Assembly (NCBI GenBank): GCA_905221615.1
Contig: CAJNDT010006144.1
Coordinates: 186,001 to 250,000 of the forward strand
DNA: 64,000 nucleotides
Source: Symbiodinium sp. CCMP2592
Taxonomy: Eukaryota; Sar; Dinophyceae; Suessiales; Symbiodiniaceae
Direction: 5' to 3'
Every line of letters begins with the position of its first letter. The stretch's first letter is position 1. This document shows positions 5,322 through 59,744 of this stretch, piece after piece. The translations under genes were made by a program, and so were the position numbers. The notes under the pieces are model-generated. The model was not told the origin of the DNA, made no database searches, and was given only the letters and a program-made list of their open reading frames with translations.

Positions 5322-5510
5322 CGGTTGATGATATAAATCCTGCATCACCCACAAGAAGGAATATACCATAATTCCCATAGTTTAGGGTCCTTAAGGTAAT
5401 GCAGATTCATATCATAAGCCGTAAGCCCTAAACCCTAAGCCCTCATAGATCCCTTACAGGTACCCTTATAGATCCCTTTAAAGGAACCCTAGGACTCATA
5501 TCATCAACTG
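5322..5510. mobile_element. MITE family A copy 2, extended form
   Basis: Reverse-orientation version of the extended structure at 880-1060: a core A element, then a telomere-like block with CCTTATAGATCCCTTT, then a second right tip (CATATCATCAACTG). Left TA at 5320-5321. Confidence 0.8.
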
Positions 5511-5585
5511 GAGGGCTGAAAAAGTTTAGGGTGTAATGATTACTTGTTGGTTAGGGGCCCGGTTCCTGTAGAGCTACTGCTGAGT

Positions 5586-6728: not shown

Positions 6729-6955
6729 AGACTCAGAGATCCCAGTATCCTTTAATTAGGGAATACTTAGGGATCCTTTAAGGGATCTAAGGGATCTATA
6801 GGGTCTGGTTCAAGGTATATTCCTTAATTAAGGGGGTCTTGGGATCTCTGGGAACTTAGTAGTGGAATACCTAGAGGATCTATAGGGTTCCTTTAAGGGA
6901 TCTACAGTGTTTAGGGTATTAAGGGACTCCAGTATCCCTTAATTACGGAAGATGC
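6729..6955. mobile_element. Broken MITE family E copies
   Basis: CCAGTATCCTTTAATTAGGG and AAGGTATATTCCTTAATTAA arms appear with GGGATCT spacers, and an arm recurs near 6926. It looks like overlapping partial copies of the element at 48974-49074. Confidence 0.55.
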
Positions 6956-6966
6956 CTCAAATGATA

Positions 6967-7066
6967 CGGTTGATGATATAAATCCTGCATTATCCATAAT
7001 AAGGAATATATGGGAATTATTGTGTATTCCTTATTATGGGTCATGCAGGATTTATATCATCAACCG
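6967..7066. mobile_element. MITE family A copy 3
   Basis: 100 bp, both TIRs intact, TA on each side (6965-6966, 7067-7068). Confidence 0.92.
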
Positions 7067-7210
7067 TAGGGGCCTTATTTTGCTGGTTCAAGGTATGTTC
7101 CTTAATTGAGGGGTCTGGGGATCTCTGGAGACTTAGTAGTGCTTCTTAGAGGGATCCTTAAAAAAGGCTCCATAAAGGGATCTCTAAGGGCTATTACAAG
7201 GGGATCTATA

Positions 7211-7313: not shown

Positions 7314-7387
7314 TATGCGGAGCTAAAAGGGAGGTATGGGACCTGCTCTGAACTCTTAAACACCTAGACACCAAACCCTCAACCCTA

Positions 7388-7489
7388 CTTAAAGGATCGC
7401 GGGGACTTAGTACCTGGCGTTCTTTAGGGTTCCTTAAACGAATTTATAAGGTTCATAACCTTACTTACTAAGTCCCATGATCCTCCAGG
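7388..7489. mobile_element. MITE family B copy 2, damaged
   Basis: The left arm is shortened (CTTAAAGGATCGCGGGGACT) and the middle is replaced by TTTAGGG-like DNA. The right arm TTACTAAGTCCCATGATCC is intact. TA follows. Confidence 0.75.
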
Positions 7490-7632
7490 TAAATTCAAAA
7501 GACCAAACGCTAACCACCACACCCTGAACCCTGAACCCTAAAGCCTAGACCAGGTCATCTGGTCTTATCGTTTCAGACGACCGATGCGAGCTCTCTGGAG
7601 ATTGGGATGGCCATCCAAAACCACTTCATATA

Positions 7633-21047: not shown

Positions 21048-21277
21048 TGAGTGCTGATATAAATCCTGCATTACCTTACTTGGAGCAATCATGGGACTTA
21101 GTAAGGAAGGTTACCAGGAAGGTTATGAGTACCTTACTTCGGGTTAATCATTAGTATAGCTACCTTACTTTTAACCCGAGTTACTAAGTCCCATGATCCT
21201 TCAAGTAAGGACCCTTAACCTCTGGGAGTTATGGTATTTTCCTATGATGGGTAATGCAGGATTTATATCGTCAACCG
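21048..21277. mobile_element. MITE family A copy 5, split by a family B insertion
   Basis: A left half (GATATAAATCCTGCATTACC) and right half (GTAATGCAGGATTTATATCG) are separated by the B element at 21079-21205. Joining across it restores the normal A order CATTACCT-TA-AGGACC. Confidence 0.9.
21079..21205. mobile_element. MITE family B copy 7, nested in family A
   Basis: 127 bp, inserted at a TA of the A element, with TA duplicated at 21077-21078 and 21206-21207. The younger of the two insertions. Confidence 0.95.
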
Positions 21278-21309
21278 CATTGAGTGCTCCCCTGAAAGCC
21301 CTAAAGCCA

Positions 21310-21977: not shown

Positions 21978-22442
21978 CTATGGAATGGTGATGGTAATGT
22001 GGTACTGGTGGATCGCCGGGCTACGCCCGAATAAATTGAAAGGCTCGAAGTAAGCAGAATACCGGTATTCGACTTCGATATTCTTGAGGTCATTGTCTTG
22101 GACGTTATCGACGATGGTGTCGTGGATCACGGAAGCTTCGCGCGAGCTTTGGCCAAACTTCATTGCGATCTTCGTGATCACGGCCTCATACTTTCCTTTC
22201 GTTCGCACCTTGATCGTTGCCAGCGCCTGGTTCATGTAACTGCCGACACCGATCGTCGCCGCCTGCAGTGCACCGTGAGCGATGCGGTGCTGCACCGTGC
22301 CAGCACCAAACACTGGGAGGCGGAAGCAGAGAAAGTCGCCTTTCTGCTCATGGATCGTTACGGGCGGGGTGTCATTGAGGGCCTCCGTCACTTTGGCAAT
22401 CCCCGTGCACAGCTTCACTGCTGCCGCAAACGGGTTTGGCAT
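21978..22442 (-). CDS. Candidate coding exon with ATG, unknown product
   Basis: 154-codon minus-strand frame starting MPNPFAAAVKLCTGIAKVTE, preceded in frame by a stop, through EQKGDFLCFRLPVFGAGTVQ, HGALQAATIGVGSYMNQALA, KVRTKGKYEAVITKIAMKFG and DNVQDNDLKNIEVEYRYSAY. No repeats lie inside. Composition is typical of a soluble protein. The last 20 codons look less natural, so an exon boundary may lie near 22040. A following island (about 21840-21960, PADISYRGSGAAGGKSGREL) may be the next exon. The antisense strand is also open. Confidence 0.55.
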   Translation of the reverse strand: MPNPFAAAVKLCTGIAKVTEALNDTPPVTIHEQKGDFLCFRLPVFGAGTVQHRIAHGALQAATIGVGSYMNQALATIKVRTKGKYEAVITKIAMKFGQSSREASVIHDTIVDNVQDNDLKNIEVEYRYSAYFEPFNLFGRSPAIHQYHITITIP

Positions 22443-23209
22443 GGCTCTAAACTCTGACTATCTCGTGGATGTGGCGTGCGTACCCGGTGGAAGTCCAAAC
22501 TTGCAACCCTCCTAAAACTTGCTTGTTTCGGGTTTAGGGTGTTGGGTTTCGGGTATGTATAGCCAAATATGAAACTACATAGCACGTTTGCATGCATGAG
22601 CATTAAAAATTAAACAAATCGCAGGCAACATGGAACCTTGACGTCGATGATGGTTTCACTGCTTTGCACCTACCTTGGTGAGCCGTTTAGAGTATGCCTC
22701 GGATGAACCGGTTCAGAAACACTGACCACATCTCTATCTTAAATGCCTACCCTAAAACCCCCAAGCATATGCATAAGACAAAGATCAAACCTTCGGGCAA
22801 AGACCGATTTATCGATTCCGACAGTGGGCTCTTGTTTGGAATCTTACCCAAATGGCGGAACCGAAGATAGCATCCAGGTGTTAAACCCGGTGTAAGAAAA
22901 CACCTTCACAACCTGTATAAAGCACTACGGAACGTTATAACCCGCGATTAAGTCCCGGATGAATCCTGTTCAAACCAACCTAGAACCGTGTATAAACCCC
23001 ATGCATAATTTTAATACTTAGATCCGAGGCAACACAACCAATCTAAACCTGTTTAGAGCCCTGCATGCACCCCTGGCAATTTCTGTACTTGGCCCAAGGA
23101 TGAACTGCGATTCTAAAAGCCCACACAATCCTAGACCCTACACTAAACCGTAGCAGGTCTTTCCTGCTACGTTGAGCCTCAGGGCCACAGGGGTCGACAC
23201 AGGGTTCAG

Positions 23210-24203: not shown

Positions 24204-24529
24204 TAGCAGTGCAAGGGCGGGGGAAACCTACACTCTGAAGTGTTGGAGCCGCTGGAAAGAATAAACTCTGAACTCCAAAACCCGAAACCCTTAACGCCCA
24301 CGGCCCGAAAATGGACCCGAAGTCTCATGACTAAGTCTAAAAACCCTAAATCCCAAAGCCTCAAACCCCAAAACCATGAAACCCTAAAGCCCCGAACTCC
24401 ACAATCCTAAAAACCAGACCACTCAATCCCTACGAAACCGTTAATTGAAGCCTTAAAGATTTCCCTTAAAGGGACCCCTTGAAGGAACCCCGCAAAGGAA
24501 GCCTTAAGCGTATCCGCTACTTCAAGGAT

Positions 24530-24629
24530 CATGGGACTCAGTAACTGGGGTTATAATTAGGGTAACTATACTTATAACCCGACTCTAGGTACTTATAACC
24601 TTACTTACTAAGTCCCATGATCCCCCAAG
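24530..24629. mobile_element. MITE family B copy 9
   Basis: 100 bp, TA-flanked. The right junction reads CAAGTAGACCCTAAC, that is, a telomere-type unit. Confidence 0.92.
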
Positions 24630-24635
24630 TAGACC

Positions 24636-24725
24636 CTAACCCCTAAACCCTATAGATCCCTATAGATCCCTGTAAGGAGCCTTAAAGGAACCTTATACTT
24701 ACTAAGTCCCATGATCCTCCAAGCA
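24636..24725. repeat. TATAGATCCCT units ending in a solo family B right tip
   Basis: CCCTATAGATCCC words, GGAGCC/GGAACC, then CTTACTAAGTCCCATGATCC without the rest of the element. Confidence 0.75.
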
Positions 24726-24829
24726 AAGGATCCTTTACAAACCCACGAGGACGAAATCTCTAGACCCTGAGCTCTGGACGGGGCACGAGCACCGTGCCGG
24801 ACTGCAGGGCCTCATAGGGTTGGAGGATC

Positions 24830-24910
24830 ATGGGATTTAGTAAGTAAGGTTCCTTTAAGGCTCCTCAGAGGGATCTATAGGGATCTATAGGGTTTAGGGG
24901 TTAGGGTCTA
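24830..24910. repeat. Solo family B left tip followed by GATCTATAGG units
   Basis: Mirror image of 24636-24725: TTGGAGGATCATGGGATTTA then GGGATCTATAGGGATCTATA and TTTAGGG. Confidence 0.75.
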
Positions 24911-25018
24911 CTTGGAGGATCATGTGACTTAGAGTAAGGTTATAAGTACCTTAAGTCGGGTTATAAGTATAGTTACACTAATTAGAACCCCAGTTACTAA
25001 GTCAAATGATCCTTTCAG
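24911..25018. mobile_element. MITE family B copy 11
   Basis: Starts at TTAGGGTCTA|CTTGGAGG; right tip slightly decayed (CCTTTCAG), TA follows. Confidence 0.9.
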
Positions 25019-25024
25019 TATGGA

Positions 25025-26598: not shown

Positions 26599-27225
26599 CT
26601 GTGAAGAACCTAAAGATTTCGAACATGGCTTGAGGGTTTAGGGTTGAAGGGGGTAGAAGACAAGCAGCAGCCGTTACAACCACATCAAAACCGTGACAAC
26701 TAGCCAGCATGCTTCCCAGGGTTTAGGGTTTAGGGGCTTAAAGTTTAGGGGTTTGTGGCTTAGGGTTTAGGGTTTACCTATAACGCGAACCCGCAACCCT
26801 GAACATCAGGCCCTAGACCGAACCGAACATCCCGTAACCTCCGCGTACCCTAAGCATACTAACATTATAGAGGCTTCATTGTGCCATTAACCACTCCGAC
26901 TCTAATGCGAAACCCTTTTTCAAACATAACCACTTTATACTAAACCTCATCTACTCTAGACACTAAACCCTGAAGAAAAAAGCGCACACAGAGGCGCCTC
27001 ATGGAAGCCCCGCCTCACAGGCTTAGGGCCTAGGGGTCCTTAAGGAATTGCTGAAGGGCTCATTCTAGGGTTCCCTTCAAGGGAACCCGTAATCCTTTCA
27101 GGGTTTCGGGGTTTGGGGTTTAGGGCTTCAGGGATTTAGGGCGATTCGGGGGGTCTCGGAGGCTTCAGTTTGTGGGCTGACTTCGTCCCCGTTTCCGGTT
27201 CCGGGGTGTGGGATTTTGAAAGCTT

Positions 27226-27400
27226 CGGTTGATGATATAAGTCCAGCATTTCCTCAATGACCCTAGACTGTGGGAAATATGGCATATTCCTTATTCTGGG
27301 TAATGCAGGTATATCATCAACCCAAAAAAACCCTAGATCTCTTAAAGGTACCCCCCCTATAGCTCCCTTTAAAGGAACCCCAGGATTTATATCATCAACC
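27226..27400. mobile_element. MITE family A copy 6, extended form
   Basis: Core element followed by AAACCCTAGATCTCTTAAAG and CCCTTTAAAGGAACCCC, then a second right tip (GGATTTATATCATCAACC). Same architecture as 880-1060 and 5322-5510. Confidence 0.85.
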
Positions 27401-27448
27401 CTGCTACTACGCTTTAGGGCCTGAGCCCCCTTAAACTCGTCTCTCCTA

Positions 27449-28320: not shown

Positions 28321-28473
28321 CTAGTAGAAGCCAGAAAGTTGGAACCTCACTTTTGGAGGATTAGTGCTAGGATCCCTTATACTTTACCTTAAGGGCATGA
28401 GGATAATGATCTATAAACCCCTAAGTTTCACCCTAAACCAAAAGGCTTTCTGCTGCGGCAGAGCGCTGCCTGC

Positions 28474-28592
28474 TAAGAGGATCATGGGACTTAGTAAGTA
28501 GGTTATAATTGGGGTTACAAGTCCCCTAAGTGGGGTTATCCTACTTATAACCTACTTTTAGCCTTACTTACTAAGTCCCATGAGCCTTCAAG
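28474..28592. mobile_element. MITE family B copy 13
   Basis: GAGGATCATGGGACTTAG left, ACTAAGTCCCATGAGCCTTC right; same internal sequence as copies at 2247, 34050 and 56552. Confidence 0.9.
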
Positions 28593-32131: not shown

Positions 32132-32648
32132 AATCTAAACCCTAAACCCTGAGCCCTTTATAAAACCCTTCTGGTACCCTCATAGATCCCTTTAGAAGAA
32201 GGTTAGGGTACCCTTAATTGTCGGAAGGTCTTTTCCTCGCGCACACACAGAATGCGTTTTCCTGGCGATGCAGGAAACAGAAGGCTCCAAGCTTCCCCTG
32301 GTTCGGCTAGTCGGGAGGCCGCCTTTTAAGAGGAAAGGGAACACTTTCATAAAGGAGTTAGGATTAGGGTTTTTTGTTTAGGGTTTAGGATTAGGGGGAC
32401 CCTTGGGGATATAAATCCTCTCAATAAGGTCCCTTTTAAGAAAGCCAGAAGTATGGTGAAGAGGGGTCCCCTTTTCATGGGTCTCCCCAATACTACCTAG
32501 GACCTAGGATTATCGGATTCTACAATGGGGTCCCCGGTAAAGGGTGCTGTAGGGCTTTAAAAAAAGGTCTTGGACTCCTGGAACCCTAAACCTAAACTCC
32601 AAACCCGAACTCCCAAAAACTGACGCCTAAGACCTGCACCCTGCGCTA

Positions 32649-32757
32649 CTTGGAGGGGCAGGGGACTTAGTAAGTAGGGTTACAACTGGAGTAACTCCAT
32701 TTAGGTTACGTATAACTCTACTTATAACCTTCTTACTAAGTCCCCTGCCCCTCCAAG
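32649..32757. mobile_element. MITE family B copy 16
   Basis: 109 bp, TA both sides. The right flank TAGACCCTAAACC is telomere-type. Confidence 0.93.
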
Positions 32758-32872
32758 TAGACCCTAAACCCTGAACCCCATAGATCCCTTTGAGGAACCC
32801 TATAGATCCCTGTAAGGGACCCTATAGATCCCTTTAAGGAGCCCTTACTAAGTCCCCTGCCCCTCCAAGTAG
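32758..32872. repeat. TAGATCCCTTTAAGGAGCC units ending in solo family B right tip
   Basis: Three CCCTATAGATCCC(T) units, then CTTACTAAGTCCCCTGCCCC and TCCAAGTAG, repeating the right end of the preceding element. Confidence 0.85.
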
Positions 32873-34245: not shown

Positions 34246-34346
34246 CGGTTGATGATATAAACCCTGCATTACCCATAATGAGGAATATAAAATAATTCCC
34301 ATAGTTTAGGGTCCTTAAGGTAGTGCAGGATTTATATCATCAACCG
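34246..34346. mobile_element. MITE family A copy 8
   Basis: 101 bp, TA both sides, intact arms. Confidence 0.95.
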
Positions 34347-39222: not shown

Positions 39223-39392
39223 CTTTAAGCCCGAACACCGGCAACACCGAGGCCGCAAACCCTGCAACCGCAAGCTGCTAACCCTGTCATATAGGGTTTA
39301 GGGAGTTTCCGAAAAATAAGGGTACCTTAGGGTTCCTTTAAAGGGACCCTTGAAGGGTTCCTATAAGGGTTCTATAAAGGGTTTAGGGTTAA

Positions 39393-40874: not shown

Positions 40875-40974
40875 CGGTTGATGATAGAAACCCTGCATTA
40901 CCCATAATAAGGAATATATGGGAACTATGGTATATTGCTTATTATGGGTCATGCAGGATTTATATCATCAACCG
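40875..40974. mobile_element. MITE family A copy 11
   Basis: 100 bp, TA both sides. Confidence 0.95.
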
Positions 40975-41720: not shown

Positions 41721-41925
41721 TCTAATGACGAAGTCCGAGTTGCCGGACTGGCAACGGGCCTTCCCTCCATGCTGCCAGGGCGGCATCTGAAGCGTTCGGG
41801 TTTAGTGCTCAAGGCTTCGTTAGGCTTCAGGTTTTAGGGGTTAGGGGTTAGGGTTTCGGGTTTAGGGTATAGGGTTTAGGGTTTAGTGCTTAAGGCTTCG
41901 TTAGGCTTCAGGGTTTTAGGGGTTA

Positions 41926-42057
41926 CTTGGAGGGTCGGGGGACTTAGTAATTGGTTGATTTAGGGACTTATAAGTACCATAACCCCAAGTAGGGTCCCTT
42001 TTAGGGTACTTATAAGTCTACTTACTAACTACTTACTAAGTCCCCCGACCCCCCAAG
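41926..42057. mobile_element. MITE family B copy 20 (GGTCGGGGG subtype)
   Basis: 132 bp, TA both sides. The TTAGGGGTTA of its left flank recurs after the element. Confidence 0.93.
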
Positions 42058-47864: not shown

Positions 47865-47984
47865 CTTGGAGGATCATGGGACTTAGTAAGTAAGGTTATA
47901 GGTACCCTAATTGGGGTTATAAGTAATTACAAGTATAGGTACCTTATTGATAACCCTAGTTACTAAGTCCCACGATCCTTTAAG
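47865..47984. mobile_element. MITE family B copy 22
   Basis: 120 bp, TA both sides. Confidence 0.95.
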
Positions 47985-48460: not shown

Positions 48461-48472
48461 ATAGTGTTTCTA

Positions 48473-48564
48473 CTTGGAGGATCATGGGACTTAGTAAGTA
48501 AGGTTCCCTTAAGGCTCCTTAAAGGGATCTATAGGGATCTATAGGGTTTAGGGGTTCGGGTCTA
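48473..48564. repeat. Solo family B left tip followed by GATCTATAGG units
   Basis: CTTGGAGGATCATGGGACTT breaks off into GGCTCC, GGGATCTATAGGGATCTATA and TTTAGGGG, then the next full B copy begins. Confidence 0.8.
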
Positions 48565-48678
48565 CTTGGAGGATCATGGGGCTTTGTAAGTAAGGCTGTA
48601 AGTACCTTCATTGGGGTTATAAATATAGTTACTTACCCCAACTATAACCCCGGTTACTAAGTCCCAGGATCCTTTAAG
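48565..48678. mobile_element. MITE family B copy 24
   Basis: 114 bp, flanked GGGTC|TA and TA|GAAG. Confidence 0.92.
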
Positions 48679-48720
48679 TAGAAGCTGTTTAGGGTTGTCT
48701 AGGCTGAAGCGGGGATAGCA

Positions 48721-48845
48721 CCTGGAGGGTCGGGGGACTTAGTAAGTAAATAGACTTATAAGTACCCTAAAAGGGACCCTAATTGGGGTTATGGTACTTA
48801 TAAGTCCTGAAAATAACCAGTTACTAAGTCCCCCGACCCTCCAAG
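48721..48845. mobile_element. MITE family B copy 25 (GGTCGGGGG subtype)
   Basis: 125 bp; TA flanks mutated (CA). Confidence 0.88.
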
Positions 48846-48857
48846 CAAGGGCTCCAG

Positions 48858-48960
48858 GTGTAGCGATCACTGATGAGCAGTCGGGGCGCGCTTTCCAGGG
48901 CTTCGGCTTTTCGGCGTACGGGGCGCGACGTTATTTTTTGAGCCTTTGCGGCTTTTGAAG
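48858..48960 (-). CDS. Candidate exon, basic Ser/Arg/Lys-rich
   Basis: Minus frame LDFKSRKGSKNNVAPRTPKS then RSPGKRAPTAHQ; resembles a disordered nuclear-type segment. Confidence 0.4.
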
Positions 48961-48973
48961 TCTAGGCTTCTCA

Positions 48974-49074
48974 GAGACTCCACTATCCCTTAATTAAGGA
49001 ATATACCTTAAATTATAGTAAGATCCCTAATATGATTTAAGGTATACTCCTTAATTTAGGGATATTGGAGTCTC
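48974..49074. mobile_element. MITE family E, best copy
   Basis: GAGACTCCACTATCCCTTAA left, AGGGATATTGGAGTCTC right, inner TTAAGGAATATACCTTAAAT; 101 bp. Confidence 0.88.
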
Positions 49075-49146
49075 AAGGCTTAGGTTCGTCAGTTTAGAGT
49101 TGCGGGCTTGGTGGGTGGCTCAAGGCACTGGGAATCACATACAAAG

Positions 49147-49564: not shown

Positions 49565-49660
49565 CGGTTGATGATATAAACCCTGCATTACCTTAAGGAC
49601 CCTATGGGAATTATGGTATATTCATTATGATGGGTCATGCAGGATTTATATCATCAACCG
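49565..49660. mobile_element. MITE family A copy 13
   Basis: 96 bp, a few internal bases deleted; TA both sides. Confidence 0.94.
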
Positions 49661-51292: not shown

Positions 51293-51340
51293 GCATGTAC
51301 TGTAGGGGGTCACCTTAAGGGTTCCTTCAAGGGATCTCTC

Positions 51341-51536
51341 CTTGGAGGGGCACGGGGCTTAGTAAGGGCTCTTAAAGGGCTCCTGAAAGGGATCTGTAGG
51401 GTTCCTTGGAGGGATCTATGGGGTTTAGGGTTTAGCGGCTAGTTGGAGGGGCAGGGGACTTCGTAAGTAGGTTACAGGTAGAGTTATACGTACGTTGAAT
51501 GGAGTTACCCCAGTTATAACCCTACTTATAACCTAC
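51341..51536. mobile_element. Two truncated family B copies
   Basis: A solo left tip (CTTGGAGGGGCACGGGGCTT) at 51341 followed by GGATCTGTAGGG units, then a copy from 51442 missing its right tip. Confidence 0.8.
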
Positions 51537-54561: not shown

Positions 54562-54662
54562 CGGTTGATGATATAAATCCTGCATTACCTGAAGGACCTT
54601 AAACTATGGGAATTATGGTATATTCCTTAATATGGGTAAGGCAGGATTTATATCATCAACCG
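54562..54662. mobile_element. MITE family A copy 14
   Basis: 101 bp, entered at GGGTC|TA, TA on the right. Confidence 0.95.
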
Positions 54663-59386: not shown

Positions 59387-59425
59387 AGGGACCAGATCCT
59401 CGAAGAATCCAAGGACTCTGTGCTT

Positions 59426-59657
59426 CGGCTGTTGATATAAATCCTGCAGTACCCATCATAAGGAATATACCATAATTCCCAGAGTCTACTTGGAGGGTCG
59501 GGGGACTTAGTAAGTAGGTAGTAAGTAGACTTATAAGTACCCTAAATGGGACCCTAATTGGGGTTATGGTACTTATAAGTCCTTAAAAAAAAGTTACTAA
59601 GTCCCCCGACCCACCAAGTAGGGTCATTAAAGTAATGCAGGATTTATATCATCAACC
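59426..59657. mobile_element. MITE family A copy 16, split by family B
   Basis: Halves CGGCTGTTGATATAAATCC and GCAGGATTTATATCATCAAC flank the B element at 59489-59618. A telomere-like block and a partial repeat of the A inner sequence (GGGTCATTAAAGTAATG) follow at 59658-59750. Confidence 0.9.
59489..59618. mobile_element. MITE family B copy 29, nested in family A
   Basis: 130 bp, GGTCGGGGG subtype. It sits at the TA of what is AGTTTAGGGTCC in intact A copies; TA at 59487-59488 and 59619-59620. Confidence 0.95.
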
Positions 59658-59744
59658 CTAAACCCTAAACCCTAAACCCCTATAGATCCCGTAAAGGAAC
59701 CCCTTAAAGGTATCCTTATAGATTAGGGTCATTAAAGTAATGTA

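Follow-up and report, generated by a model that had tools for sequence, protein, structure and literature searches.

One TA within a short repeat of Symbiodinium sp. CCMP2592 is occupied repeatedly by a second short repeat. In the 64,000-nucleotide stretch of DNA analyzed here (the window, C5282:186001-250000 of a source assembly of 1.098 Gb in 5383 contigs), a family B MITE lies inside a family A MITE at 21 kb, and across the source genome B is found in this same A site in 15 nests. Nested TA-duplicating MITEs are of a known kind; the unusual part is the recurrent landing site. Our main reading, to which we give a probability of about 0.8, is that A and B are gene-less hairpin MITEs moved by TA-inserting transposases encoded elsewhere, that B entered older A copies, and that one TA of A, at consensus position 32 (site 32), is preferred and was hit independently.

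The two families and their setting

Family A is about 100 bp long and family B mostly 108-135 bp; the two differ in sequence, and no gene is seen in either. Their ends start with CGGTTGATGA (A) and CTTGGAGGAT (B). The end words match the window 57 times for B and 33 times for A; 20 base shuffles gave on average 0.05 and 0.1. Hairpin folding is predicted for five copies of A and B, with z from -7.5 to -13.8, and for three further A copies, with z from -9.0 to -10.5. As for abundance, a 19-base A junction string has 5706 exact matches in the 1.098-Gb genome. Both families have terminal inverted repeats, short length, many dispersed copies and a target duplication of fixed length, 2 bp, although of the 47 B copies located elsewhere than in A, 10 have unequal flanks. 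We file them as TA-duplicating MITEs, neither Stowaway nor proven Tc1/mariner derivatives.

The window is about 48% G+C, with few long frames (four of at least 150 aa) and many TTTAGGG-like arrays. The telomere-like repeat, the G+C and the size of the genome would be in keeping with a dinoflagellate. An Rfam search of it gave no match, and Pfam, run on 14 of its frames, gave two, both under the curated cut-off. The dinoflagellate spliced-leader word had no match. The end patterns of A and B had no match in viral contigs, nor that of B in prokaryote genomes, two sets from which the window's own genome is possibly absent. One open frame of 159 aa at 21981-22457 (reverse strand) is protein-like, with weak PHROG and PDB matches; its 154-aa ATG form has no Pfam match.

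The telomere-like arrays have a feature of their own: 13 of 125 carry flanking direct repeats at a score of at least 36, where 1.7 would be expected from mismatched flank pairs, although the 13 include some tandem-array effects. Such arrays lie in the window at 227-247/340-360, 39327-39361, 41832-41885 and elsewhere, and they resemble interstitial telomeric insertions at break repair, as these appear in the relevant passages of PMC2246262. A copy of the B3 subfamily (41926-42057, reverse strand) is located within a telomere-like array, and its flanks, when joined, read ...aggggtTAggggtt....

Anatomy of the nests

The host A copy at 21 kb spans 21048-21279, and the B MITE inside it, 127 bp long, occupies 21079-21205. 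Both elements are on the forward strand. The left part of the host (21048-21076, its outer ~10 bp worn) and the right part (21208-21279) were delimited by BLAST against the other window A copies and by the restored alignment. The latter, together with the sequence itself, also places the two strandless TA pairs of the target duplication, at 21077-21078 and 21206-21207. The insert is of the B1 subgroup with CCGAG, folds with a predicted hairpin z of -7.5, and has W_42704 and W_27449 as its nearest fetched copies. Wear at the left end of the host is located at GATATAAATCC, where TGAGTGCTGATATAAATCC is found in place of the consensus TACGGTTGATGATATAAATCC. In addition, the 8-bp TGAGTGCT, read from the sequence at 21048-21055 (forward strand), is repeated directly at 21281-21288, past the right end of A, and stands on both sides of the host copy.

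The initial annotation had proposed that removing B plus one TA regains the order of an intact A copy, and this proved correct. The excision regains the A junction CATTACCT-TA-AGGACC, and it is also the best fit to the A consensus (score 151, in three equivalent registers), while keeping both TA gives 146 and two other cuts give 147 and 136. Which TA is called the duplicate is arbitrary, as for any 2-bp duplication. The joined flanks have 16 spanning matches elsewhere in the window (best E 4e-18), all 16 outside telomere-like arrays. Other A copies carry the junction without a break: CATTACCTTAAGGACC runs through the copies at 968, 49567 and 55261, and the copy at 34344 is one base off this string. 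The copy at 49565-49660 (forward strand) is intact. The 21-kb nest is confirmed as real and is ordinary in kind.

The window holds a second nest of this type. The A copy at 59424-59660 (reverse strand) contains a B of the B3 subfamily (59489-59618, forward strand) at a different TA, consensus position 41, and with this B taken out the host is again an A of 105 bp free of gaps. Another layer is added by family D, the third palindromic one: one window A copy is nested in a D copy, and here too the site is restored. The nested element is an A2 variant, palindromic, with TA on both sides and a predicted hairpin z of -13.8 (6967-7066, forward strand); it splits a D copy with approximate limits 6909-7135 (forward strand). 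An uninterrupted and palindromic D copy lies at 48960-49080 (forward strand), and five aligned D copies have a mean column identity of 68%. As for A2, found at 6967-7066 and 40875-40974, its left half is approximately the inverted right half of an ordinary A, and the first of these copies is a nearly perfect palindrome.

Other arrangements are composites, in which a partial A or B end (~20-39 bp, at or near the TIR tip) is followed by a CTTTAAAGGGATCTATAGGG/TTTAGGG-like spacer and then by a full element. They occur in A, B1 and B2, at window positions 24518-24725, 24817-25020, 48471-48680, 32647-32871, 840-1062, 5324-5512, 27224-27403 and 59424-59742; at 51339-51472 the second end alone is seen. 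They may stem from gap repair that was aborted, from the use of other ends once nesting had occurred, or from filler DNA at breaks.

Length of the target duplication

The flanks of other copies bear out the 2-bp TA duplication that had been attributed to B. Of the 22 complete window B copies counted, 19 have TA/TA at their sides and one each has TG/TG, CA/CA and TT/TA; among 10 window A copies, nine have TA/TA and one AA/AA. These counts omit single-ended copies and the B near 7380-7491, and some of the 22 sit in composites. Window comparison gave intact copies with TA on both sides at 54562-54662 (A) and 47865-47984 (B); the non-TA direct repeats belong to a B3 copy at 48721-48845 (CA/CA) and a B copy at 28473-28592 (TG/TG), all four on the forward strand. 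A duplication of 3 bp is unsupported, as third-base matches are near chance (4 and 3 of 22 for B, 1 and 2 of 10 for A).

A wider set comprises 75 complete B copies from the window and 42 fetched stretches; the B of the 21-kb nest is absent from it because of a left-end indel. Inside A, 24 of 28 B copies are flanked by TA/TA. Outside A the figure is 32 of 47, with the same dinucleotide on both sides in 37 and unequal flanks in 10. A-end pairs show TA/TA in 17 of 35, equal flanks in 19 and unequal flanks in 16, but 17 of the 35 pairs are long (nested or otherwise) and some look mispaired. Decay or mispaired ends may be the cause of unequal flanks. Restored empty sites add to this evidence, two in A with B removed and one in D with A removed. 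Both A and B make 2-bp, usually TA, duplications; since A duplicates TA too, the TA does not set B apart.

Recurrent landing at one TA of A

Site 32 reads CATTACC-T-TA-AGGACC. When the nest was used as a genome query, six of the seven fetched relatives (L002-L007) were cut at this TA and held different B subfamilies, the seventh (L008) being a B outside A. Over 28 nests, the A sites are 32 (13 nests), 41 (five), 72 (three), 46 (two), four singles and one unplaced, where 6 of the 13 at site 32 come from the nest query, which is biased to that site.

A less biased count uses anchored patterns, in which the insertion may fall anywhere up to 30 bases from the A motif CTGCATTACC or from CTGCAYTACC. 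They gave 20 and 34 matches, overlapping, with no control or mirror-control matches; the matches were sorted by hand and checked on fetched loci, and the rest were not B-in-A. Read from the left motif, the insertions fall 12 times on site 32, four times on site 41 (one weak) and once on site 60, with none at 46 and 55. Read from the right motif, the mappable nests are at sites 46, 55, 62, 69, 71 and 72. Strings lacking an A end before the motif or a B after it, such as C2446:1530737 and C2702, were left out; the unplaced A nests C5225 and C4002 are not among the 17, and the weak site-41 assignment, C1491, was kept. Loci L001, L012, L025 and later L031 were excluded because they repeat the window or L005, L002 and L007. 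At C5099, a TA-flanked B occupies site 32.

At each of the left sites, a similar share of intact A copies has the TA (13-15 of 19). The excess at site 32 has a p of 8e-6 for 12 of 17, and of 5e-5 for 12 of 19 with the two unplaced nests counted against it. Few sites are occupied, about 0.2% when exact patterns are counted, against the 5706 copies of one uninterrupted form. In the 15 site-32 nests, B is represented by several subfamilies and by both orientations. For all 15, with a tie in one case, the nearest fetched relative of the inserted B lies outside nests.

Why is this TA favored? The bases beside it do not give the answer. A weight matrix built from 19 B targets outside A, after removal of 13 composite-like targets, puts site 41 at the top of 14 sites; site 32 comes third, which is the 58th percentile among all TAs. 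An earlier matrix with composites kept also had 41 first and 32 third. Flanking-base preference fails to predict site 32. Nor is there a significant excess of palindromes at the window targets (fraction of simulations 0.29 for B and 0.72 for A). Perhaps A is a landing pad, whose hairpin or cruciform stem edge is read by the B transposase in preference to the bases beside the TA. What suggests it is the place of site 32, barely within the main hairpin stem predicted for A, and of site 72 near the other edge, folds beyond the stem varying between copies, and that the matrix misses 32; we regard the idea as tentative and rather doubtful.

Candidates for the mover

IS630-Tc1-mariner enzymes insert at TA and leave a 2-bp duplication. 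A and B duplicate the same target, and the initial annotation had called this typical of Tc1/mariner. The duplication does fit, and the superfamily is a probable assignment. A search of the genome for one transposase family, DDE_3 (PF13358), gave 10 matches above cut-off. The transposase with matching ends that the annotation had suggested looking for did not emerge, as 0 of the 10 own A or B ends within ~1.5 kb. At nine of the loci no such ends occur in the fetched flanks of ~1.5 kb, a length perhaps too short to reach them. The tenth, L053, was considered as an autonomous relative of B and rejected: the DDE_3 fragment between its B ends is part of a different element, E (1297-2358), inserted in the B copy at a TA and bounded by a separate set of ends and a separate TA pair. 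A TA-flanked DDE_3 element does exist in the source genome, and mobilization of A and B by a Tc1/mariner enzyme is what we infer.

Element E shows further peculiarities. At L057:259-4058 its DDE_3 transposase is located in a 3.8-kb unit, and L058 has tandem units. The L057 element has 250-bp terminal direct repeats, 100% identical, each with inverted AGGACGAAAG ends. L054:7-2058 is a single frame of 683 aa that by eye begins like DnaJ, continues with a Rep-like section and finishes as DDE_3, the last being the one part matched by search.

Relative age of the families

In both window A-B nests, B lies within A, so the claim that B moved after A stands for the copies entered: at each of these nests, it is well supported that B is younger than its host. 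One nest dates one pair of copies. For nested copies the order D, A, B is established, and for the whole families it is likely. The reverse arrangement was also sought: for 13 A copies tested, no joined flanks led to a B among the spanning matches listed, and direct comparison of these flanks with 22 B copies gave scores between 23 and 35, much as shuffled flanks do (up to 26-35).

For the families as such, that A is the older is weakly supported by divergence. Mean pairwise identity is 0.838 for A (10 copies) and 0.885-0.928 within B subfamilies (3-4 copies each), where B alone was split, by eye, and A was left unsplit; D, with its column identity of 68%, is more diverged still. From a single consensus, all B diverge by 15.5% and A by 9.4%, a difference that weakens the age argument. 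The B tree has 3 of 19 inner branches well supported.

Alternative explanations

Could the many nests descend from one? An A[B] nest formed once might have spread as a composite through its outer A ends, which would account for the same TA being occupied in 15 nests and for the several nested A copies that retain both A ends. The variety of B subfamilies and orientations at site 32 speaks against such copying, and so does the comparison of nearest B relatives among the fetched copies, on which we rejected it as the origin of the recurrent nests. L011, L015 and L020, which share subfamily and orientation, could include a copied composite, and for the nests in general we hold this origin to be very unlikely. 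A different objection concerns the TA itself, which might belong, as its final pair, to a terminal inverted repeat longer than assumed; there would then be no target duplication, and the junction would be restored by luck. As TA...TA is also an inverted repeat, TA/TA copies such as the 32 of 47 B outside A are ambiguous when taken alone. However, direct non-TA pairs (CA/CA in 3 and TG/TG in 2 of these 47, AA/AA in one A) are not expected of an inverted repeat, and at two separate sites A is regained when B plus one TA is removed, which leaves this objection with hardly any credibility.

A or B might instead be introners, the intron-forming elements, and not plain MITEs. Those of Symbiodinium microadriaticum are TIR elements (PMC9860276), those of Amoebophrya carry inverted and direct repeats (PMC7789003), and in the passages on them both resemble A and B as short TIR elements of high copy number. 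Their duplications, 4 bp in the S. microadriaticum example and 3-5 nt in Amoebophrya according to the same passages, differ from the 2 bp found here, and this identity appears highly improbable. The last alternative keeps the MITEs and changes the enzyme: the mover would duplicate TA but be a transposase from outside the Tc1/mariner group. The DDE_3 search gave no cognate transposase, as this proposal would have it, but the genome does have DDE_3 transposases, and the DDE_3-bearing element in L053 is itself flanked by TA. Such a mover is unlikely, and still worth keeping in mind.

Comparison with known systems

A close likeness is with the carrot Stowaway elements DcSto (PMC3695323). The passages on DcSto describe short elements with 2-bp TA duplications and thousands of copies, insertions that cluster and nest, single positions entered independently by different copies, and a copy with a duplicated terminal piece. 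However, the Stowaway TIR given there, 5'-CTG CCT CCR T-3', is matched by eye neither by A CGGTTGATGA nor by B CTTGGAGGAT, and DcSto is described as AT-rich, in contrast to the ~48% G+C here, a value for the whole window and not for the elements themselves. With IS630-Tc1-mariner elements (Pfam DDE_3) the families share the TA target, and the genome has DDE_3 transposases, one of them in a TA-flanked element. Unlike those elements, A and B are ~100-135 bp long with no gene seen, and none of the 10 DDE_3 matches has their ends as its own. A search of openly licensed papers, made without sequences, found nothing recognized as A or B elements.

Proposed mechanism and outlook

Taken together, the data favor the following course of events. 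Each of A and B would be moved, probably by cut and paste, by a transposase encoded elsewhere, which, in the manner of IS630-Tc1-mariner enzymes, would insert at TA and duplicate these 2 bp. B copies of several subfamilies would have landed in A copies already present. Site 32 would be a preferred landing site in A, and the 21-kb nest one of many independent insertions.

What does this nest offer? With no second genome to hand, it lets the target duplications be read exactly and two insertions be put in order. Beyond it, A provides thousands of near-identical targets, a panel supplied by nature, and the recurrence at site 32 makes target choice testable. Counting how often each of the 16 TAs of A is used could separate a preference for sequence from one for DNA structure in TA-specific transposition.
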